Positions 5,842 through 23,755 of a stretch of 32,615 bases of DNA are shown here, piece by piece. Origin of the DNA: Azospirillaceae bacterium (lineage in GTDB: Bacteria; Pseudomonadota; Alphaproteobacteria; Azospirillales; Azospirillaceae). The stretch is taken from positions 1-32,615 of the forward strand of contig JANQJV010000179.1 in NCBI GenBank assembly GCA_028281465.1, in the 5' to 3' direction. Under the pieces are notes generated by a model. That model saw nothing but the letters and a program-made list of their open reading frames with translations, was not told the DNA's origin and ran no database searches. How positions within the stretch are numbered: the first letter of the stretch is position 1; every line of letters begins with the position of its first letter. Position numbers and translations under genes: made by a program.

Positions 5842-6890
5842 TCGTGATTCACTCCCCGGAACACGCCCGGCACCACAGCCAGTGCGAAGTACACAACGGG
5901 GCCCTGGTGCCGTCGTTCGAAAGTCCGCGGCGCGCCGAGATCGTGCTCGAGGCCGTGACCGCGGCCGACCTGGGGCCGATACGGCCACCGTCGGCGGACG
6001 GTCTGGCGCCCGCCGCCGTCCTGCACCGGGTCGACTATCTGCGCTTCCTGGAAACCATCTGGAACGACTGGCAATCCGCCGGCCGGGCTGGGGAAGCCAT
6101 GGCGTTTTCCTGGTGCACCCACGCCTTCCGGCCACGGCAGGAACCGCTCGGCCTGGACGCAAGGCTCGGCTACTACTCGTTCTGCGTCGACACCACGATC
6201 AACGCCGGCACCTGGGGGGCCGCCCGCAGCGCGGCCGATGTCTGCCGGACGGCAGCGGCCGTGGTGTGCGACGGGGCCGCCGGTGCCTTCGCCCTGTGCC
6301 GACCGCCGGGTCACCACGCCGGTCCAGGGTATTTCGGCGGCTACTGCTTCCTTAACAACGCCGGCATCGCCGCCCAGACCTTGCGCGACGGCGGCTGTGC
6401 CCGGGTGGCCGTTCTGGACGTGGACTTCCATCATGGCAACGGGACCCAGGATGTGTTTTACCAGCGTGGCGATGTGCCGTTCGCGTCGCTGCACGGCGAC
6501 CCGCGCCACTGCTTCCCATTCTACTCCGGCCATGCCGACGAGACCGGCGCCGGCCCAGGCGCCGGTGCCACCCTCAACCTGCCGCTGCCACCCGGTACCA
6601 CCTGGCCGACCTATGCCGAGGCCCTGGACCATGCGCTACGCTGGCTCGGTGGGTTCGACCCGGATGCCTTGGTCGTGTCCCTAGGCCTGGACACCTTCGC
6701 CGGCGACCCGATCAGCGCCTTCCGCCTTGAGACCGACGATTTCCCACGTCTGGGCGAACGGCTGGCGTCGCTGGGCAAGCCGACCGTCTTCGTCCTGGAA
6801 GGCGGTTATGCGGCCGAGGATTTGGGGCGCAATGCGGTCGGCGTGCTCGGCGGGTTCGAGTCCGCCTCCGGCAGCGGTGGAAACCGGTAG
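5838..6890 (+). CDS. Histone deacetylase-fold amidohydrolase (acetylpolyamine amidohydrolase-like)
   Basis: A 350-residue zinc hydrolase of the arginase/deacetylase fold. It has the paired active-site histidines in RPPGHHAG, the zinc ligands in LDVDFHHGNGTQ (Asp and His) and in GLDTFAGDP (Asp), and the transition-state tyrosine in LEGGYA. The N-terminal EVHNGALVPSFESPRRAE region is typical of bacterial acetylpolyamine amidohydrolases, which deacetylate small amine substrates; bacteria lack histones of the eukaryotic type, so the true substrate is probably a polyamine or other acetylated amine. It is coupled to the RHH gene by a four-base overlap. Its last 85 bases overlap the end of the convergent HAD-type gene; this part encodes the conserved GGYAAEDLG tail here, so this frame is the one under constraint. 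Confidence 0.92.
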   Translation: MIVIHSPEHARHHSQCEVHNGALVPSFESPRRAEIVLEAVTAADLGPIRPPSADGLAPAAVLHRVDYLRFLETIWNDWQSAGRAGEAMAFSWCTHAFRPRQEPLGLDARLGYYSFCVDTTINAGTWGAARSAADVCRTAAAVVCDGAAGAFALCRPPGHHAGPGYFGGYCFLNNAGIAAQTLRDGGCARVAVLDVDFHHGNGTQDVFYQRGDVPFASLHGDPRHCFPFYSGHADETGAGPGAGATLNLPLPPGTTWPTYAEALDHALRWLGGFDPDALVVSLGLDTFAGDPISAFRLETDDFPRLGERLASLGKPTVFVLEGGYAAEDLGRNAVGVLGGFESASGSGGNR

Positions 6891-9286
6891 ACCCGGGGCA
6901 CCGGCCGCCCTGCTCGCGCCGCGATGACAGAGAGCTCGGCCGCCAAGACATCGGCATAGCCGAGCGTGACCAGGGCGACCGCCTGTGGCGCCAGCGCCAA
7001 GGCAGCCTCCAGGCCGCACACCGGGATGCCGTTCAGGGCCGCGCCCAACCGCCCCGGCAGCCGGTCGACATACGCAGCCACCGCGATACCTTCGGCCTGG
7101 GCCAGGCTGAGAAACAGCGGCCCGATGCCGCCATGGCCGCCAACGCCGACGGCGATCAGGCGCTCGGGGGCATTCGGCCGCATCTGATCGAGCAACGCCA
7201 GACACAGGGCGTGGTGACCGGCATCCGGCCGAGCCGCGCGATGCAAGCGCTCGAGCAACATCCGGTCTGCCCGGGCCAACGCACCCTGCGGCCAAGGCAG
7301 CACGACCGGATCGGTGTGCAACGCGGCGGTCAGACAATGGCTGCCGGCCCGGTCGATCAGGCTGCGGGCCGCGGCCAACGCGCGGTCGTCGATCAACGGC
7401 CGGCTCAGCCGGCTGCCGTCGTTGAAGCTGTAGACGAGGTCACCCAGGCGACGGGCATCTTCTGCGGTCGGGAGCATGAGGCAGGCATAGAGCGGCCGCC
7501 AGGCATCGAGGCCGCTCCCCAGCAACGCACTGGCCGGTGTGCCCGACGGCATCAGGGTGCACAACGCATCCCGGAACGCAGCCATGCCGGCCCGGCACGC
7601 AGCGATCGCCCGGCGTTGTGCCGGCGGCACCGGCGGCGTGCGCCACACCGGCTCCACCGGCCCATCGGGCCGCAGCGGATCGATCGGCCGGAAACCGAGC
7701 GTGGTCGCTTCCAACCCAGTCAGCATCTCTTCCAGAATCTGGGGCGTGCGATAAAGAACGCCCGCCGCCGCCAGTTCGCTGCCACCGCAACCGAGATACA
7801 CCGAGAGTCGCGCCCCATCGGCCACAGCATCAAACACATCCCGGGTGGCATAAGCGAGAAGGTGGTGGAAGTGCCACGTTCCAGCGATCTCCGGAATCGC
7901 CTCCAAGGCGGCCTGGGTGGTGCCGCGGGCGCCCAAGTCGACGGTGGCAACCACCCCACCACCGGCCGGCAGAACCTGGCGCAAGTAGGCAACCAGCCGT
8001 GCGAGGCCAGCCCGTCCATGGCAACGCACCCGCTCCGTCACCGCCGGTTGAGCAAGATGGGCCTTGAGTCGATCGATCGGACGGGGGACGCCGGTGCCAT
8101 CGGCCGGCATCAGCGCCAATGCCTGCAAGCGCTGGCCGGCCGCAACCGCGAGCGCCGACGGAAGCTCGTCCAGCCCAAGGACGGCCAGGAATTCATCCAC
8201 CGTCAGGAATGGGTTACGCGTCACCAAATGGTCAACCGTGTCGGGCGTGAAACCGGCCAGTCGGACCGGCAGCATGGCTTCGCGCGACAGGCTGAGCCTG
8301 CTGACGTCGAGCGATACGCCGCGCCGCGCCGCGGCATCGGCCACCGCCTCGGCAAACACGGCTCCTTCGCGCATGAAGGCAACGACATGGCGCACATCGT
8401 CGGCGACACAGCGTTCGACCACCCAGTCACAGAACCCAGCGACCAAAGGGCCAATCATGGTCGCCCCCAAGTCGAACCAATAGTCGTCCGGTACCGGGGG
8501 AGGTGCCGCCAATCCGGCCAAACGGCGGACTGCCGTCTGCCGCTTAGCCGCCGGATATGCCAGCACCAGGGCTTCGCGCGCCTGTGCGGTGGCAAAGCGC
8601 GGGTCGGGCTGGTACAGATGGGTGGCCAGACCGGCCCGTGCCGCCATGGCGCCATCACCGTGCGGGTCGTCGCCGATGTGCACCCCCCGTGCTGGCGCCA
8701 TGTCTGGGAAGTCGGCGAGCATGCGTCGGAATAGACCACCGTCGGCTTTGGAACAACCGTGATCACAGGATACATACAGGCATTGCGGTCGCACGACCGT
8801 GACGCCACAGCTCTGCAGCAAGGGAAAAAGGTGAACAGCAGGCAGATACATGTCTGACACGGCGACCACCAGCCGGCCGGCGGCCAGAACCGCCTCAAGG
8901 AATCCGTGCACCGCCGGATTGACGACGCAAGCCTCGGCTTCCGTGGCCAGTTCCAGGGCGATCAGCCGACATGGATCCCCCAGCCTGGGCGGGAAGGCAG
9001 CGTAGATCTGATCGAGAGTCACCTCGGGACAACCGGTCTCAGCCTCCGCTGCAGTGCGGGCTCGTTGCTCAAGCCGCTGGCGCAAGGCAACGAAGGCGGC
9101 GGGACACAGAGCGGCATCCAACACGCCATCGGCCGCAGCTCGGACGGCGACTCGCTCGAACACGTCCTCCGGCGCCTCGCAACGACGCAACAGCAGCGTA
9201 TCGAAGACATCGATGCTGACCAGGTCGTACCCGGCCGGGTCCATCCTGGCCAAGACGCGGTCGTGCCGCCAGGCGAGCGCTGGCAT
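6806..9286 (-). CDS. Large HAD-type protein with C-terminal Rossmann-like domain (COG5610-like)
   Basis: An 826-residue protein. Residues 20-235 form a HAD-like domain: motif I in SIDVFDTLLLR (nucleophile Asp26), motif II in VVAVSDMYLP, and motif IV in HIGDDPHGDG. The residue two after Asp26 is Phe, not the usual second Asp, as in the predicted hydrolases of COG5610, so phosphatase chemistry is not assured. A long central part (about 280-690) has no family I recognise. The last 110 residues (LIAVGVGGHGGIG and LVTLGYADV) look like a nucleotide-binding Rossmann unit seen in sugar-modifying proteins. COG5610 relatives usually accompany glycosyltransferases; none is nearby. I chose the ATG at 9286 because AGGTG lies nine bases upstream; the frame is open to 9346 but without a Shine-Dalgarno. 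It follows imuA by 22 bases and its 3' end overlaps the amidohydrolase gene. Confidence 0.78.
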   Translation of the reverse strand: MPALAWRHDRVLARMDPAGYDLVSIDVFDTLLLRRCEAPEDVFERVAVRAAADGVLDAALCPAAFVALRQRLEQRARTAAEAETGCPEVTLDQIYAAFPPRLGDPCRLIALELATEAEACVVNPAVHGFLEAVLAAGRLVVAVSDMYLPAVHLFPLLQSCGVTVVRPQCLYVSCDHGCSKADGGLFRRMLADFPDMAPARGVHIGDDPHGDGAMAARAGLATHLYQPDPRFATAQAREALVLAYPAAKRQTAVRRLAGLAAPPPVPDDYWFDLGATMIGPLVAGFCDWVVERCVADDVRHVVAFMREGAVFAEAVADAAARRGVSLDVSRLSLSREAMLPVRLAGFTPDTVDHLVTRNPFLTVDEFLAVLGLDELPSALAVAAGQRLQALALMPADGTGVPRPIDRLKAHLAQPAVTERVRCHGRAGLARLVAYLRQVLPAGGGVVATVDLGARGTTQAALEAIPEIAGTWHFHHLLAYATRDVFDAVADGARLSVYLGCGGSELAAAGVLYRTPQILEEMLTGLEATTLGFRPIDPLRPDGPVEPVWRTPPVPPAQRRAIAACRAGMAAFRDALCTLMPSGTPASALLGSGLDAWRPLYACLMLPTAEDARRLGDLVYSFNDGSRLSRPLIDDRALAAARSLIDRAGSHCLTAALHTDPVVLPWPQGALARADRMLLERLHRAARPDAGHHALCLALLDQMRPNAPERLIAVGVGGHGGIGPLFLSLAQAEGIAVAAYVDRLPGRLGAALNGIPVCGLEAALALAPQAVALVTLGYADVLAAELSVIAARAGRPVPRVYRFPPLPEADSNPPSTPTALRPKSSAA

Positions 9287-9308
9287 GGCGGGAACACCTG
9301 GGCCGCGG

Positions 9309-10145
9309 TCAGGCGGCCAATCGGTCGGAGTCGACCGCGGCGGCATGGGACGGGGTGGCCATGGACGGGAGATCGCCGGGCGCCAGTGCCGTCTCAGCCA
9401 CGTCGATCAGGCGTTGGCCATCCCAGACCACATGCCAGGTATCAAGACGGCCAGCCCGGCACCGGTCCAATGTCAGCCGCCAGCATGGAACGGCCCAGCA
9501 TGAACCGACAAAGTTTGCCCGCTCCGGGCCAACCACACCGGGCCCAGTCAAACCGGGACCAGTCAAACCGGGACCAGGCCGGGTGGCAACCCGCCAGCGG
9601 GTCACCGCGGCGCTGAGCGTGCCGCGCGCCGCCGCCGGGTGCACCATGAGCGCTGTGACACCGCTGGCCTCGGCAGCCAATTGCAAACGCCGGCTGGCGG
9701 TCAACCCGGGCGGTGCCAACTCTGCCACCACCGCGGCCAGACCAGCACAACGCAGCCCCTCTTCCGTGGCCCACAAAAGCGCGTCGTTGCGCTCGGCCTC
9801 GGCCAGGATGACCCGGTGCGGCGGCAGGCCGAAGCGCAGCAGTCCAGGCGCATACAGCTCCAGGCGGCGACCGAGCCACAGCACCGGCCTGGCCTCCGGG
9901 CCCCGAGCCGCGATGCCAGCGGCCACCACGGCCGCAAACCCGATGGCCGCCGCCTGATCGGCTACACCGTCGCCCGTGATCTCGTGCAAACCGGCCAAGG
10001 GCAGACCGCCATCCGGCAAGGCGGCATCCAGACCGGCCAACCCGAACGGCCAGGCCTGCCCGGCCTGGCCGCCGATGCCTTCCAGGCGTCGGATGCGCGT
10101 CCGCAACGCGGCCAAAACTGCGGCCTTATCCGATCTATCGGACAT
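9309..10145 (-). CDS. imuA: ImuA, SOS mutagenesis cassette protein (RecA-fold)
   Basis: A 278-residue protein of the ImuA family, RecA-like accessory factors that work with ImuB and the error-prone polymerase DnaE2 in damage-induced mutagenesis. Recognisable stretches are LRTRIRRLEGIG, FGLAGLDAALPDGGLPLAGLHEI (residues about 37-60), PVLWLGRRLELYAPGLLRFGL, LLWATEEGLRCAGLAAVVAEL and LTASRRLQLAAEASGVTALM. The ATG at 10145 is the likely start: GGAAGG lies eight bases upstream, while the upstream in-frame ATG at 10178 falls inside the LexA box. Near the C-terminus a short tandem repeat adds GPGLTGPGLTGPG. Neither imuB nor dnaE2 follows; a large HAD-type gene takes the second position. Confidence 0.88.
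   Translation of the reverse strand: MSDRSDKAAVLAALRTRIRRLEGIGGQAGQAWPFGLAGLDAALPDGGLPLAGLHEITGDGVADQAAAIGFAAVVAAGIAARGPEARPVLWLGRRLELYAPGLLRFGLPPHRVILAEAERNDALLWATEEGLRCAGLAAVVAELAPPGLTASRRLQLAAEASGVTALMVHPAAARGTLSAAVTRWRVATRPGPGLTGPGLTGPGVVGPERANFVGSCWAVPCWRLTLDRCRAGRLDTWHVVWDGQRLIDVAETALAPGDLPSMATPSHAAAVDSDRLAA
9537..9577. repeat. In-frame 15-bp tandem repeat inside imuA
   Basis: ACCGGGMCCAGTCAA occurs about 2.7 times (9537-9551, 9552-9566, 9567-9577; one C/A difference in the first copy). On the coding (minus) strand each unit adds Leu-Thr-Gly-Pro-Gly, a flexible linker. Copy-number change would not shift the frame. Confidence 0.85.
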
Positions 10146-10170
10146 GGCATGCCTTCCAATCAGGGTTTTT

Positions 10171-10185
10171 GTTCGCATTATGTTC
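10171..10185. promoter_or_regulatory. LexA box (SOS operator) of imuA
   Basis: GTTCGCATTATGTTC is a perfect alphaproteobacterial SOS box, a direct repeat GTTC-N7-GTTC (GAAC-N7-GAAC on the other strand). It lies 26 bases upstream of the imuA ATG at 10145, where LexA would cover the promoter. No second box is visible on the + strand side for the divergent gene at 10431, which is about 245 bases away. Confidence 0.92.
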
Positions 10186-18095: not shown

Positions 18096-19136
18096 TCAGC
18101 GCACCGCGGCCGGGCGGATCTTAGCGGTTTGTTCGGCCGACAGAAGGGTTTCGCCGGCCCGGATCAGCCGATAGGTCCCGGTCACGGGACCGGGAGGCCA
18201 CCCTCCCGCCGGACGCCGGCGGCCACTGTACGAGAACCATGAAACATTGCTGGCCTTCAGCGAGGTCTGGCCATGGTGCAACACCCGGCCATCCGCCATG
18301 GTCAGGGTAAACTGCTCGAGATCGCCAGCCATCGCGCCGAACATATCGATCCAGAAAACCAGGGCCGGCATGTCAGCCGGCAGGGCAGATACGGCATAGT
18401 CGCCGTTGCGTGCCTCCTTGGCATCGGGCCGCCCCATGGCGAATCCGGCAGACAGGATGCCGCTGGCCCGATACGCAAGCCTCCGCTCCGCGTCGGGATG
18501 CCACAGCGGCTGGCGCCGGTCGCCACACAGGTATCCGAGGATCGGGCCGACGAATGGGTCGACTGCGCGCCCGTCGCGGCGCACAGTGAATTCGACATGG
18601 GGATACACCGTGTTGCCGGATAAGCCGATCAAGCCCAACTCATCACCGGCGGCGACCCGATCGGTGGGACGTACGCGTACACTGCCCCGGCGCAGGTGAC
18701 TGTATTGGGTTTCCCAACCATTGCCGTGGGCGATTACGACGCCGTTTCCGGCCAGCCGGCCGGCCAGCGCGGGGCTGCCGATCTCATCGACGCTGACGTC
18801 GGCCATGCCATCCCGCGTTCGCCGCACCACTCCGGCCGCGGCGGCTACGACGGCGACACCGCGACGCATGGCAACCAGATCGGCCAGCCGGATGTCGGTC
18901 CCGTCGTGGCCATCATAGCTCAGCCGCCCGCATTGGAAGTCCAAGCGGCCTGGCCCGGGATCGTGGTCGACATATGTCTGAACGAAGCACGTCTCTCCGA
19001 TGGTGCAACGCACCGGAAGCGACAAAGGCGGCCCATCAGCCTCGCCCGTCGACGTGGCCAAACTAGCGACGGCAATCGTCACGCCAGCGACCACGGCTCG
19101 AACGATGCTGCGGTTTGCCCGCCCTGGCTGCCGCAT
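18096..19136 (-). CDS. M23-like peptidase with altered metal-site motif
   Basis: A 346-residue exported protein, convergent with the response regulator. Residues about 11-34 form a signal peptide (IVRAVVAGVTIAVASLATSTGEA). The LytM/M23 fold is seen in YDGHDGTDIRL (His77 and Asp81, zinc ligands), VVIAHGNGWETQYSHLRRGSV (His147, catalytic His), GDELGLIGLSGNT and YPHVEFTVRRDGRAVDPF. In the last motif the canonical HxH is H180-V-E182, so the third zinc ligand is Glu. The C-terminal 130 residues, about 215-346, form an extra domain of unknown type (ADMPALVFWIDMFGAMAGD). M23 enzymes cut peptidoglycan cross-bridges; some are inactive activators. ATG 19136 is chosen over 19166 because the strong GGAGGGGAGAG sits seven bases upstream. 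Confidence 0.85.
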   Translation of the reverse strand: MRQPGRANRSIVRAVVAGVTIAVASLATSTGEADGPPLSLPVRCTIGETCFVQTYVDHDPGPGRLDFQCGRLSYDGHDGTDIRLADLVAMRRGVAVVAAAAGVVRRTRDGMADVSVDEIGSPALAGRLAGNGVVIAHGNGWETQYSHLRRGSVRVRPTDRVAAGDELGLIGLSGNTVYPHVEFTVRRDGRAVDPFVGPILGYLCGDRRQPLWHPDAERRLAYRASGILSAGFAMGRPDAKEARNGDYAVSALPADMPALVFWIDMFGAMAGDLEQFTLTMADGRVLHHGQTSLKASNVSWFSYSGRRRPAGGWPPGPVTGTYRLIRAGETLLSAEQTAKIRPAAVR

Positions 19137-19184
19137 CGTCCGTCTCTCCCCTCCGCGGCGTGACATCGGCTCACAAGTCTCGGC

Positions 19185-20396
19185 TCACAAGTCAAGGGCC
19201 TGAAAGGCCGCCGTGATGCCCAGACCTCCGCCGATCCCGATCATGGCCAGGCCAATTCCATCCGGCTGTCGCACCGTGCCACCACGCACCATTTGGCTGA
19301 ACAACCGCGTCACCAGGATGGCACCGGACGCCCCGAACGGGTGGCCCAAAGCGAGGGCGCCGCCGTCGCGGTTGACGAAGGCCGGATCAATCTCCAGAGC
19401 CGTCAGACTGGCCAGAACCTGCGATGCGAACGCCTCATTGAACTCCAACACACTCACCGCGTCGAGTCCGACGTCCGGCCGCCGGCGCAACAGCCGCCGG
19501 GTCGACTCGATCGGCCCGATGCCGAGCAGCTTTGGATCCACCCCGGCCGCCGCCGCATCCAGGAACCCAAGGCCGCGGTGGAACCCGAGCCGGCGCCCGT
19601 GGCCCCGGCTGAGCACGACCAGGGCGGCGGCCCCATCATTGAGCGGACAGGCATTGCCGGCGGTGACCGTGCCGCCGGGAACGAAGGCTGGAGTCAGCTT
19701 AGCCAAGGCGGCCGCTGAGGTGTCGCGCCGCGGGCACTCGTCCGTCGTCACCAGACCTTGCCACGTCGGCACAGCGACGATCTCCGCCGTGAAGCGGCCA
19801 CCGTCCTGTGCAGCCACGGCACGCCGATGGCTTTCCAACGCGAAGGCATCCTGGGCCGCGCGGGTAATGCCGAAGCGCTGCGCCACGGTCTCGGCAGCCA
19901 CCCCCATGTCGGGATCGCCAACGCTGTCGGGCGCAAAGCGGGCCCGCGCGTAGAAGCGGGGGAGCCCTTGCAGGCTCCGGGGTTTCTCGACACGCCAGGG
20001 AGCCCGACTGACACTCTCCACACCACCGGCGATGAAGACCGTGCCGGCGCCAGCGGCCACCAGACGGCAAGCGGTAACCACCGCTTCCAGACCGGCCCCG
20101 CACTGGCGGTCAATGGTCATACCGGGCACACCGATCGGCAAACCGGCAGCGAGCAAGGCCGTGCGCGCCAGATTGCCGCCACCATTGGCGGCATTACCGA
20201 GAATCACGTCATCGATGGCGTCGGGATCCAGGCCGGCCTCGTCGACCACGGCGCGCAGCACAACGCCGGCCAGGTCCTCAACCTCGACATCGGCCAACCG
20301 GCCGCCGGCCCGGCCGATCGGCGTTCGCCGTGCAGCAACGATCACCGGCTGACGTTCGTCGGACAATGTCGGCGGACAAGCATCGGTGATGGGCAT
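19185..20396 (-). CDS. Thiolase family acyl-CoA acetyltransferase lacking the CxG cysteine
   Basis: A 403-residue thiolase. The nucleophile Cys99 is present in DRQCGAG, as are the loop block TVTAGNACPLNDGAAAL, the NEAFA Asn motif, and the catalytic-His block GGALALGHPFGASGA. The second catalytic cysteine, normally in a CxG motif near the C-terminus (for example LCIGGG), is Gly387 in AMIGIGGGLG, so deprotonation or protonation of the thioester enolate must be done otherwise. Length and the rest of the fold are normal. The start is the ATG at 20396; the frame stays open upstream only as a shadow of the MDR gene. It is 37 bases behind the MDR gene and probably the last gene of the bioMNY transcript. 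Substrate cannot be told from sequence. Confidence 0.9.
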   Translation of the reverse strand: MPITDACPPTLSDERQPVIVAARRTPIGRAGGRLADVEVEDLAGVVLRAVVDEAGLDPDAIDDVILGNAANGGGNLARTALLAAGLPIGVPGMTIDRQCGAGLEAVVTACRLVAAGAGTVFIAGGVESVSRAPWRVEKPRSLQGLPRFYARARFAPDSVGDPDMGVAAETVAQRFGITRAAQDAFALESHRRAVAAQDGGRFTAEIVAVPTWQGLVTTDECPRRDTSAAALAKLTPAFVPGGTVTAGNACPLNDGAAALVVLSRGHGRRLGFHRGLGFLDAAAAGVDPKLLGIGPIESTRRLLRRRPDVGLDAVSVLEFNEAFASQVLASLTALEIDPAFVNRDGGALALGHPFGASGAILVTRLFSQMVRGGTVRQPDGIGLAMIGIGGGLGITAAFQALDL

Positions 20397-20433: not shown

Positions 20434-21450
20434 TCAGGACCCGTCACCGGAGGAACAGGCGAGCAGGATCTTGCCCAAGCGACCGGGGCGCTCGGCATGG
20501 TGGAGAGCCGTCCGGATGTTGGACAATGGGTAGACACGCTCGATCGTGCTGGCCAGGGTGCCGGCAGCCACAAGCGAGGCGGCAGCCTGCAGGGCCCGAC
20601 CAAGCCTCTCACGCGGAACGCCGTGGACCCAAGAGCGCAGATTGACCAATTCCACCCGAACATCGCGGCGCACGCTATCCGCGGTGTCGATCGGGGTCCC
20701 GGACAACAGGCCATAATGCAGCATTCGGCCGCCGGGACGCAAAACCTCCAACATGGACTGACCGACCGGTCCCCCCACGGCATCGAGGGCCAAATCAAAA
20801 TCGACGCCGCCGACGGCAGCCCGCAGCGTATCGGGACAAATCCACCCATCGGCAACGACGATGCCGGCGAGATCGAGACCGGCCAGCACGGTGCGGGTCC
20901 GGGCATGGCGCAGGATCGCCACCGGTCGAACGCCCTGCCGGTTAGCCAAGCGCAACAGCATGCGGCCGATTGCCGACCCGGCCGCGCTGACCACCACCCG
21001 GTCGCCCGGGGTCAGCGAGGCCCGATCGGTCAGCATCAACAGAGCCGTCAGCGGGTTGATGTAGCCCATGGCAACCTCGTGGTCGGCGAGGCCATCGTTA
21101 ACCGGGAAACACCAATCGGCCTCGGTCAATTTCAGCGTCTGCCAAGCCCCGGGGCTGCCCAGCGGCCAGACCCTCAGCCCGGGACGCAAATGCACCACGC
21201 CCGCACCGATCCGCTCCACCACGCCAACCCCTTCAAACCCGGCCACATACGGACACGGAAAACGGGCTCCATAGACGCCGGCGATGGTAAGCAGATCCGA
21301 CGGGTTGATGGCCGCCGCGCGCATGCGCACCCACACCTGCCCCGGCCCGGGCGGTGGCACTCGATGCGTTTCCAGCTCCACCACGTCGGGTGCTGGGCCA
21401 GGCCGCCGCACGGTTGCGGCCAGACTGTCAGCACCGCCGGAGCCGCGCAT
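20434..21450 (-). CDS. MDR-family oxidoreductase, 2-enoyl thioester reductase-like
   Basis: A 338-residue medium-chain dehydrogenase/reductase without the structural or catalytic zinc ligands. The N-terminal GroES-like part has AAAINPSDLLTIAGVYG and PYVAGFEGVGVVERIG; the cofactor domain starts at GDRVVVSAAGSAIGRMLLRLANRQG. The tract MGYINPLTALLML resembles the conserved NPLTA(Y) segment of mitochondrial-type enoyl-ACP/CoA reductases (MECR/Etr1), so NADPH-dependent reduction of a 2-enoyl thioester or quinone is plausible. ATG 21450 lies four bases after the bioY stop, with a weak AGGG as ribosome site, which suggests translational coupling. Thiolase follows after 37 bases; together they suggest an acyl-CoA step, though the pathway is not identified. 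Confidence 0.85.
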   Translation of the reverse strand: MRGSGGADSLAATVRRPGPAPDVVELETHRVPPPGPGQVWVRMRAAAINPSDLLTIAGVYGARFPCPYVAGFEGVGVVERIGAGVVHLRPGLRVWPLGSPGAWQTLKLTEADWCFPVNDGLADHEVAMGYINPLTALLMLTDRASLTPGDRVVVSAAGSAIGRMLLRLANRQGVRPVAILRHARTRTVLAGLDLAGIVVADGWICPDTLRAAVGGVDFDLALDAVGGPVGQSMLEVLRPGGRMLHYGLLSGTPIDTADSVRRDVRVELVNLRSWVHGVPRERLGRALQAAASLVAAGTLASTIERVYPLSNIRTALHHAERPGRLGKILLACSSGDGS

Positions 21451-21454
21451 GGCC

Positions 21455-21991
21455 CTAGAGTCCCGGGTAGGCGCGCCTGACCCCGCGCGCGATCAGAGCG
21501 GTCAACACCACCTTGACCAGGTCGCCGGGCAGGAAGGCCATGGAGCCGGTCAGGGCCGGCACCCAACCGATCTCGGCCACCACCACGAGCCAAGGAATGC
21601 CGATCAGGTAAACCACACCGATGCCGCCAAGAGTGAGGGCAGTGATGGCCTGCAGCAGCGGCACCGCACCGTCGTGGCGGGTGTACAACCACCCGACCAC
21701 GCCAGCGGCGATCGGCCAGGACAGGATGAAACCACCGCTCGGCCCGAGAAAAACACCGAAACCGCCACGCCCGCCAGCCAGCAGCGGCAATCCGACCGCC
21801 ACGAGAACGATGAACAACAACAAGGCTAGACCACCGCGGCGGGCCCCGATCAGGGCGCCGGCGAGCATTGGCCCCATGGATTGGGCCGTAATCGGCACGC
21901 CGACGACGGGCAGGACGATCGGCGGAAACAGGCCGAGCGCTGCTGTCAGAGCAGCGAATAGAGCAATGTGGACGATGGCGCGCGTGCTCAT
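21455..21991 (-). CDS. bioY: BioY biotin-binding S component of an ECF transporter
   Basis: A 178-residue, six-helix membrane protein of the BioY family, which binds biotin with high affinity and is the substrate-specific unit of the energy-coupling-factor importer. Recognisable parts are IVLPVVGVPITAQSMGPMLAGALIGARRG (N-terminal half), GLPLLAGGRGGFGVFLGPSGGFILSWPIAAGVVG (central conserved signature) and MAFLPGDLVKVVLTALIARG near the end. Its start overlaps the bioN stop by four bases (ATGA), so the three importer genes are coupled. The order ATPase-T component-S component is the rhizobial bioMNY arrangement. Confidence 0.96.
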   Translation of the reverse strand: MSTRAIVHIALFAALTAALGLFPPIVLPVVGVPITAQSMGPMLAGALIGARRGGLALLLFIVLVAVGLPLLAGGRGGFGVFLGPSGGFILSWPIAAGVVGWLYTRHDGAVPLLQAITALTLGGIGVVYLIGIPWLVVVAEIGWVPALTGSMAFLPGDLVKVVLTALIARGVRRAYPGL

Positions 21992-22668
21992 GGTCGGGCC
22001 TCTCGGTCGGAACGGGGCGAACCGTCCGCAGCAGACGGCAATCGGGGTGGCGACACAGTCCCACTGTGCCCCGGATCATAGCAGCGCGCATCGATGGCAT
22101 CGGCGATGTCGTCGGCCATTTTCATCAGGCGCACGGTCACCGGCAAAGCGACAGCCAGCACACTATGGTCGAGACCGCGGACCCGCTGCGCCTCGCGCAC
22201 CTCGGCGGTGATGGCGCCCAACACGGGAATGAAGCGGAATGCCAACGCCAGCGCGAGACCAATCGGCCGGGACGGCAGACCCAGAGGCCGCAGCCATGCC
22301 AGGTGGGCCTGCAGCGAGTCGATCATATCGGACGACCGGGTGGTCAGTGTGATCAGACCGGCCAGCAAGAGCACGGCAGCGAAGCGCAGGAACACGAACA
22401 CGCCCGACAGCCAGTCAACCATCAGCGTCTGGACCAGAAGCAGGGCCAACAAGAGCCACATGACGGGTTTGAGTTGGCGCCACGCAAACCGCAGCGACAG
22501 ACCGGCAACGCGGTAGAGCAACACAATCGCTGCGGTCCCCAGCGCCACCACGGCCAGGTCGCGGATCAGGAAAAGACCGGTGCCAACCACCGCCAGCACC
22601 AGGACCTTGAGACCGGGGCTGAGGCAGTGGATCACGGAGTGTCCGGGTTGGTAAAGGTCCACCGTCAC
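21988..22668 (-). CDS. bioN: BioN, energy-coupling factor transmembrane (T) component
   Basis: A 226-residue membrane protein of the CbiQ/EcfT family that links the ATPase to BioY. It begins with the typical [22 protein letters not shown] block (the family's xxxSxLHxLdPrxKl pattern), has about five hydrophobic segments, and carries the Ala-Arg-Gly-type coupling motif in [14 protein letters not shown], which contacts the ATPase groove. It overlaps bioM by four bases upstream and bioY by four bases downstream. The polar C-terminal tail after [11 protein letters not shown] is probably flexible. Confidence 0.93.
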
Positions 22669-23441
22669 GTCAGGTGCGCCTGATAGAAGGGGATGGCGCG
22701 CGCGGGTACGTCATCCACGACCAGCTTTCCATTGTCGAACACCAGGACCCGCTCGAAATCCGCCAACAGGTCCAGATCGTGCGACACCAGCACGACGGTT
22801 TGCGGCAGCTCAGCGACCGCCCGGGCCACCCGCCGCTTGTTGCGCAGATCCAGCACAGTCATGGGTTCGTCTAGCACCAGATAGGCCGGGTCCATGGCTA
22901 GCACGCCAGCGATGGCGAGGAGTTGTTTCTGCCCCCCGCTCAACAGATGTGCCGGATGCTCGCGGAGAGCGGCCAAATCGTAGCGTTCCAGGGCTTCGGT
23001 CGTCCGGCGCGCGACCTCGGCTTGAGACAGACCCAGGTTCTTCAAACCGAAGGCGACATCTTCCTCGACGATGGGAAAAACGATCTGATTATCAGGATTT
23101 TGGAAGACGAAGCCGACCCGGCGGCGCACTTGCGCCCCCTCCGTCCGAGTGTTCAGCCCGTCGATCAGCACATCTCCGCTGGCCGGCAGCAGCAGTCCGT
23201 TTAGCAAGCGGGCAAAGGAACTCTTGCCCGAGCCATTGGCACCGATGACGGCAACCCGCCTCTCGGTGATCGTGAGCGAGAGATCGGTCAGTGCGAATCC
23301 ACGACCGCGCGACAGAGACACCCCGCACAGTTCAATGCCACGCCGAACCGGCTCTGGCCGTGGACTGGACACGGATGCCGTCGGACCCGTTGCGGTCCGC
23401 CCCATACCCGCACGCCCGGGGAAGAAGCGGTGCATCAACAT
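22665..23441 (-). CDS. bioM: BioM, energy-coupling factor ATPase
   Basis: A 258-residue ABC ATPase of the ECF class. Motifs: Walker [19 protein letters not shown]-loop [25 protein letters not shown] (the NPDNQ wording is diagnostic for ECF ATPases), signature [14 protein letters not shown], Walker [14 protein letters not shown] and H-loop VLVSHD. The frame extends to a TTG at 23477; ATG 23441 is preferred because GAGAGGG lies about eight bases upstream. A second ATG two codons on is also possible. The first 35 residues are a basic, proline-rich extension. It is the first gene of the biotin-importer operon; a small membrane-protein gene lies 314 bases upstream on the same strand. Confidence 0.92.
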
Positions 23442-23755
23442 GCGGGGTGCCCTCTCATCAGGGGACCAGATCGCCAAGGACCGATCGGCACGGTGGTCGG
23501 GTTGAAATCGTCATACTTCAGAGGCACCGGGGGCGATCGGAGACGGTCTCGAAGCGGATAGAGGTCATCAGCAATCATCATTCGCAGTGCGTGTGTGCCG
23601 GGATCACCAACACGGGTTGAGACGACTAACATGGGTGTCGCAGTCATCGGGATGGGAATGCGGGCTGGCTGATCTGCGCGGACCGTCGGCGGCGCCGGCG
23701 CGAGGTGGGGCTGGGCGGACGGATCGACGGGATGCAAGACGGTCAAGGTGTGACG
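23442..23755. other. Gap between bioM and the small membrane protein gene
   Basis: About 314 bases with no supported gene. The open frame 23435-23746 on the minus strand starts with TTG, overlaps bioM and is Pro/Arg-rich low-complexity sequence, so it is not called. The bioMNY promoter should lie here. I looked for the alphaproteobacterial BioR operator (TTATCTATAA-like) and did not find it. Confidence 0.5.

Follow-up and report, generated by a model that had tools for sequence, protein, structure and literature searches.

A YhfS-type thiolase clade with its CxG cysteine exchanged, a candidate relocated cysteine and a biotin-transporter neighbourhood

How might a thiolase work when the cysteine of its CxG motif, the canonical acid/base residue, has been replaced? 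The question is raised by one gene in a 32,615-nucleotide stretch of an Azospirillaceae genome (contig JANQJV010000179.1; the whole of this stretch is called the window here). The gene product shows both domains of the thiolase superfamily, Thiolase_N at 238.7 bits and Thiolase_C at 90.9 bits, with PF00108 and PF02803 each scoring above the Pfam gathering score. A sequence-only reading had described the CxG cysteine as replaced, the remaining catalytic residues as intact, and the formation of an acyl-enzyme as something that should still be possible. Re-reading of the codons returned the same residues: GGG for Gly387 at the CxG position, together with the nucleophile Cys99, Asn320 of the NEAF motif and His352 of the GHP motif (Table 1).

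Table 1. Coordinates of the thiolase gene, its catalytic and clade-specific positions, and the neighbouring genes in the window
Feature	Position	Strand	Basis
YhfS-type thiolase, 403 aa, Gly387 replacing the CxG cysteine	19185..20396	-	Pfam and NCBIfam matches, clade tree
Gly387 codon GGG, canonical acid/base Cys position (CxG)	19236..19238	-	alignment and codon reading
His352 codon (GHP)	19341..19343	-	alignment and codon reading
Asn320 codon (NEAF)	19437..19439	-	alignment and codon reading
Cys250 codon TGT, clade-specific cysteine, pantetheine loop (GNACPxND)	19647..19649	-	column comparison and codon reading
Covering-loop stretch, residues 147-164; Arg151, Asp161 and Pro162 (nearly) invariant in the clade	19905..19958	-	column comparison
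Cys99 codon TGC, nucleophile, clade motif D-R-Q-C	20100..20102	-	alignment and codon reading
MDR-family reductase (zinc-type dehydrogenase/enoyl-reductase-like), in the place of the ligase	20434..21450	-	Pfam
BioY, substrate-binding part of the ECF biotin transporter	21455..21991	-	Pfam BioY, 121.9 bits
BioN-like ECF transporter T protein	21988..22668	-	Pfam CbiQ, 55.2 bits
BioM-like ECF ATPase	22665..23477	-	ABC_tran; TIGR04520, 221 bits, below its cut-off

To place the exchange among homologues, 59 related genomes, the window's own included, were searched; they yielded five orthologues at 58–62% identity (next matches at most 49%), all with Gly at position 387. An alignment of six sequences, i.e., the window protein and these five, was used to scan 84,980 species genomes with two patterns, GNACP[LV]ND and [LVI]EFNEAFA, neither of which contains residue 387, and the best 80 loci were kept. 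Together with the five relatives, the window itself and three plasmid loci, picked like the six query sequences by overall similarity, the collection comprises 89 loci from five phyla (Pseudomonadota, Actinomycetota, Bacillota, Cyanobacteriota and Fidelibacterota). Position 387 is readable in 87 of them and is a cysteine in none; in the remaining two, L091 and L109, the sequence is broken or out of register at this site. In L109 (Alicyclobacillus pomorum, 6962-8154), a frame change near NEAF breaks the thiolase reading frame, through either decay or a sequencing error. Both loci and L115, being broken or partial, were left out of the alignment and tree, which hold 86 clade rows and 25 ordinary thiolases (one of 26 was dropped for length). 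The clade forms one side of a branch with an SH-aLRT support of 100. Its rows carry Gly (50), Ser (33) or Ala (3) at position 387, where all 25 ordinary thiolases have Cys; the CxG cysteine is thus found in 0 of 86 rows, whereas Cys99, the NEAF asparagine and the GHP histidine are each kept in all 86, in line with the acyl-enzyme formation expected earlier. In the CxS-type loop of the nucleophile, the window thiolase has Ala at residue 101, where 81 of the 86 rows have Ser. Many actinobacterial members (L078-L114, Arthrobacter and kin) combine Ser387 with GHA or GHG in place of GHP. That the window thiolase belongs to a clade without the CxG cysteine is practically certain.

The homologue alignment proposed in the sequence-only reading therefore does reveal a GxG-like motif kept in a clade, and the read error that it had allowed for at the Gly387 codon is excluded, because the site is non-Cys in every readable homologue. 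An AlphaFold2 model of the window thiolase, built from 49 sequences, reached a mean pLDDT of 95.1 and a pTM of 0.94, and among solved structures it comes closest to ordinary thiolases (8gqh by Foldseek; 1ulq with Z 59.8 and an rmsd of 1.4 over 377 residues). Both this confident model and the conservation in 87 of 87 readable homologues argue against a decaying gene, a sequencing error or an inactive protein, an explanation for which no support was found, which the conservation contradicts, and which we give a negligible chance. The suggestion that the enzyme may be inactive in condensation found no support either; there is no sign of inactivity, with Cys99, Asn320, His352 and Cys250 jointly retained throughout the aligned clade.

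Column comparison shows that only two cysteines are invariant in the 86 clade rows, Cys99 and Cys250. The Cys250 column holds Ser in 24 and Ala in one of the 25 ordinary thiolases, while its count of 86 of 86 in the clade is search-biased: the pattern GNACP[LV]ND includes Cys250, so the 80 scanned loci were partly selected for it, although [LVI]EFNEAFA does not include it. From the conserved motif, we read residue 250 as the probable equivalent of Ser247 in the Zoogloea thiolase and Ser284 in human T2. Excerpts of the respective sources name Zoogloea S247, together with H348, as part of the active-site lining (PMC7337054), and place human T2 Ser284 in the pantetheine loop, with Cys413 of the CxG motif as the acid/base residue (PMC6790690). 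As every clade row has Cys250 where Ser is the rule in ordinary thiolases, and as this residue would sit in the active-site-lining pantetheine loop, the second catalytic cysteine seems to have moved and not to have disappeared; the chances that Cys250 takes part in catalysis appear evenly balanced. Neither this residue nor the biotin-transporter context described below had figured in the sequence-only reading. Its option that another residue is used is now favoured, with Cys250 as the candidate, and the case that it had named as refuting, a cysteine from elsewhere filling the site, is one to which Cys250 may come close.

Comparison with known systems sets the clade apart in several respects. 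With canonical thiolases (1ulq, PcaF, the Zoogloea thiolase) it has in common the fold, the Cys nucleophile, NEAF and GHP; it differs in lacking the CxG cysteine and in having Cys250, a D-x-Q sequence before the nucleophile and a distinct covering loop. SCP2-thiolases offer a precedent for a second cysteine from outside the CxG loop: an excerpt of PMC7682436 describes them as without the CxG cysteine, the second Cys being thought to come from the HDCF loop. The window thiolase and its clade keep NEAF where SCP2-thiolases have HDCF, and the candidate cysteine would lie in the pantetheine loop instead.

The main chemical rival to a relocated base is that the thiolase frame houses a condensing enzyme of the decarboxylating type, in which the carbanion would arise, as in ketoacyl synthases, through CO2 loss from malonyl-CoA or malonyl-ACP. 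The clade has Gly, Ser or Ala at position 387, and ketoacyl-ACP synthases III (FabH, BioZ) also have a small residue, Ala or Gly, at the CxG position; a step losing CO2 would moreover pull the condensation forward. When a full-length profile alignment to 30 FabH sequences was forced (local hhalign, no accuracy cut), Gly387 paired with the alanine in the AMGGG motif of FabH and Cys99 with the FabH cysteine, but this alignment is weak (probability 28%), and when the clade was aligned by hhalign with individual FabH and FabF sequences, the alignments were partial and did not reach the C-terminal motif. In the FabH proteins of relatives, as read from the motif list, the position opposite Gly387 is Ala in 29 of 30 and Gly in one, and the window genome's own FabF carries NSFGFGGTN. 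Against a decarboxylating enzyme, the fold is thiolase-like throughout, as the match to 1ulq indicates, the invariant Cys250 is left unexplained, and no malonyl recognition residue was identified. The clade further differs from ketoacyl synthase III and its Cys-His-Asn triad in having NEAF in the place of HQAN, and hence no HQAN histidine, and in possessing the thiolase loop domain. We consider decarboxylation unlikely, though it deserves to be weighed seriously; the biological role, lengthening of a biotin-like acid, could be the same, and thiolase-type and decarboxylative condensation both fit it.

Beyond Cys250, the residues specific to the clade are Asn68, Gly74, Asp96, Gln98, Arg151, Asp161, Pro162, Ala167, Leu291, Phe319, Arg364 and Leu365, part of which fall in the covering loop, before Met164. 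In degradative thiolases, according to an excerpt of PMC7337054, this loop helps to set tunnel length and the nature of the substrate. The presence of Arg151 and Asp161 there suggests that the acyl group may be polar.

The genes around the thiolase point to biotin. In the window, the operon runs BioM–BioN–BioY–MDR reductase–thiolase, head to tail, with gaps of -4, -4, 4 and 37 bases, so that BioY lies on the same strand as the thiolase and less than 5 kb from it. No sigma-70 promoter-like site was found around the operon, and the BioR-type operator motif TTATNNATAA had no match in the window with one mismatch allowed. On the same strand, 18 bases after the thiolase, stands an M23 peptidase gene (18096-19166) that is probably unrelated and may be co-transcribed. 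Elsewhere in the window, two long minus-strand open reading frames (6806-9346 and 9309-10178) overlap by 38 bases. Across the collection, BioY occurs within 5 kb of the thiolase in 72 of 89 loci, and four of the 17 loci without it (L042, L047, L090 and L115) are truncated by contig ends; in many of the actinobacterial loci L078-L114 the BioY genes are on the opposite strand. By comparison, BioY was found at none of the 20 ordinary thiolase loci of the window genome and its relatives (about 7.5 kb on each side, three of them shorter). A biotin-related role of the clade is therefore highly probable.

The most constant partner is an AMP-dependent ligase, which 87 of 89 loci carry no more than 2.7 kb from the thiolase. 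The two exceptions are L115, a 3-kb fragment, and the window, where the MDR gene stands in its place; the window genome's closest match to the module ligase is an acyl-CoA synthetase of 29% identity (G000:C106). This near-constant partnership, combined with the loss of the acid/base cysteine from its usual place and the retention of the acyl-enzyme residues, would also suit an acyl transferase or thioesterase, in which Cys99 passes the acyl group of the ligase product to another acceptor, with no carbon–carbon chemistry. The full retention of the NEAF asparagine and the GHP histidine speaks against such an enzyme, as does the lack of a known acceptor (the neighbours were searched for the module's own families), and we hold it to be improbable. 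A reductase and a thioesterase recur as well. An MDR homologue accompanies the module in 17 of 89 loci, i.e., the window and 16 others, at most 6.5 kb from the thiolase; a 4HBT thioesterase does so in 15 loci, and the two occur together in 15. The best plasmid matches of the window MDR protein include module-carrying records from Streptantibioticus and from R. leguminosarum WSM1325. No ketoreductase or dehydratase could be assigned to the module. Four Rhizobium loci (L040, L041, L046 and L071), two of them on named plasmids, keep the ligase, thiolase, 4HBT thioesterase and reductase with no BioY nearby.

After the general model TIGR01930, the best specific NCBIfam model for the window thiolase is NF005212 (PRK06690), at 365 bits against a curated cut-off of 498. 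The same model ranks first or second in all nine other clade members scanned, and the cut-off leaves these out too, since their best score is 472.7. Matches to NF005212 occur in the control genomes of B. subtilis and Deinobacterium chartae, above the cut-off in one of the two. The best match of the module ligase is to PRK07638, a family of acyl-CoA synthetases, with a score under the cut-off of that model. NF005212 is presumably YhfS and the PRK07638-like ligase presumably YhfT, and we take the clade thiolase and its partner ligase to be the YhfS and YhfT of the literature. A comparative-genomics paper of 2002 reportedly had the BirA regulon as its subject. The link between YhfS and biotin is in any case already known: according to the excerpted text of PMC6391492, yhfS-yhfT of S. 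aureus is repressed by BirA with biotin, and an excerpt of PMC12445080 reports that the BioY, AMP-binding protein and thiolase genes of S. meliloti respond together to NolR. YhfS of Firmicutes, a BirA-regulon partner of YhfT and BioY, resembles the clade in its ligase and BioY neighbours and in matching NF005212; the window differs in its score below the cut-off, its full BioMNY transporter and its MDR reductase in place of the ligase.

The assignment of the ligase to an acyl-CoA synthetase family, albeit below the cut-off, could also mean that the pair serves lipid metabolism, rescuing or lengthening fatty acids when biotin shortage starves the biotin-dependent acetyl-CoA carboxylase. Such a response would leave unexplained both the persistent linkage to BioY across phyla and the polar covering-loop residues specific to the clade, and appears improbable to us, somewhat more so than simple acyl transfer.

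Regulation by biotin in Firmicutes (PMC6391492, in excerpt) would equally fit a role in which the module provides pimeloyl-CoA or pimeloyl-ACP to de novo biotin synthesis, with the thiolase as a counterpart of BioZ, whose route likewise uses a condensing enzyme (PMC11089781, in excerpt). Biotin synthesis genes were counted in 55 hand-picked module-bearing genomes: the hosts of 50 of the 80 scanned loci, less one, plus six, including the window genome. BioB scored above its cut-off in 25 of these, as a pimeloyl route would need, and in none of the other 30, which include the window genome and its five module-bearing relatives. In the window genome, which is 97.5% complete, the best BioB match reached 32.6 bits against a cut-off of 225. 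BioD was present in 19 of the 55 genomes, and 28 had neither BioB nor BioD. BioA exceeded its curated cut-off in 17 genomes and is a poor marker at loose E-values, where aminotransferases of other kinds are matched in 54 of the 55. Among the 59 relatives, own genome included, BioB occurred in 0 of 6 with the module and in 30 of 53 without it (Fisher p 0.011, a descriptive comparison, as the rows share kinship); within one genus, four genomes have the module and no BioB, and a fifth has BioB and no module. Partial pathways were also seen: eight module genomes (G062, G074, G076, G086, G089, G092, G105 and G106) have BioB and no BioD above the cut-off, and two cyanobacteria (G064 and G066, hosts of L047 and L049) have BioD and no BioB; these ten may make use of desthiobiotin or other enzymes. 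A pimeloyl precursor would be useless in the genomes without BioB, or without BioB and BioD, and with so many BioB-less hosts a de novo biotin precursor is not the general product of the module. Pimeloyl supply, already contradicted for the BioB-less genomes, is thus very unlikely as an explanation.

We infer a biotin-like substrate for the thiolase because a biotin transporter is its usual neighbour and because the biotin ring cannot be completed in BioB-less hosts. Known natural biotin catabolites are shorter than biotin, and for this reason lengthening of the side chain is preferred to shortening as the direction of the reaction. In the explanation that we favour, a biotin-like acid, most likely one whose side chain lacks two carbons (bisnorbiotin), would be imported via BioY and converted to its CoA ester by the partner AMP-dependent ligase. 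This ester would acylate Cys99, with His352 and Asn320 forming oxyanion hole 1, and Cys250 would take over proton transfer to or from the second acyl-CoA. The acid would thereby be lengthened by two carbons, the product reduced by enzymes of the fatty-acid type or by the neighbouring MDR reductase, and biotin released by a 4HBT-type thioesterase, found near the module in some lineages, or by another hydrolase. The MDR and 4HBT genes near the module are counted in support as a set for reduction and release; the window operon without a ligase, the presence of BioB in 25 of 55 module genomes and the missing ketoreductase or dehydratase count against this explanation. As a whole, i.e., a YhfS-type thiolase from an old clade with Cys250 as relocated base that lengthens a biotin-like acid with the ligase, this explanation has in our estimate a probability of roughly 0.35, and salvage by side-chain lengthening, taken by itself, is an equally tentative proposal. 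The narrower combination, in which the clade represents a third solution for the second cysteine, from the pantetheine loop, and ligase and thiolase together salvage biotin from shortened catabolites such as bisnorbiotin, is rather unlikely to hold in full.

In the open-access literature searched (subscription papers lay outside its scope), neither the absence of the CxG cysteine nor Cys250 was found described for the YhfS family, and the exchange in this clade seems to be undescribed there; PMC12642757 mentions neither yhfS nor yhfT. The same literature yielded no paper testing biotin salvage by the module genes and no functional study of the yhfS-yhfT pair, which belongs to biotin regulons. 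Given the residue exchange, a whole clade spanning several phyla may be wrongly labelled as 'acetyl-CoA C-acyltransferase', its usual annotation; in the many BioB-less hosts of this clade, the pimelate idea is ruled out. If the relocated cysteine is true, it would represent a new active-site layout in a textbook enzyme family. If the salvage role is true, it would constitute a new source of biotin for microbes unable to make it; biotin-requiring bacteria could then live on the degraded vitamin, and the yhfS-yhfT pair would be explained.
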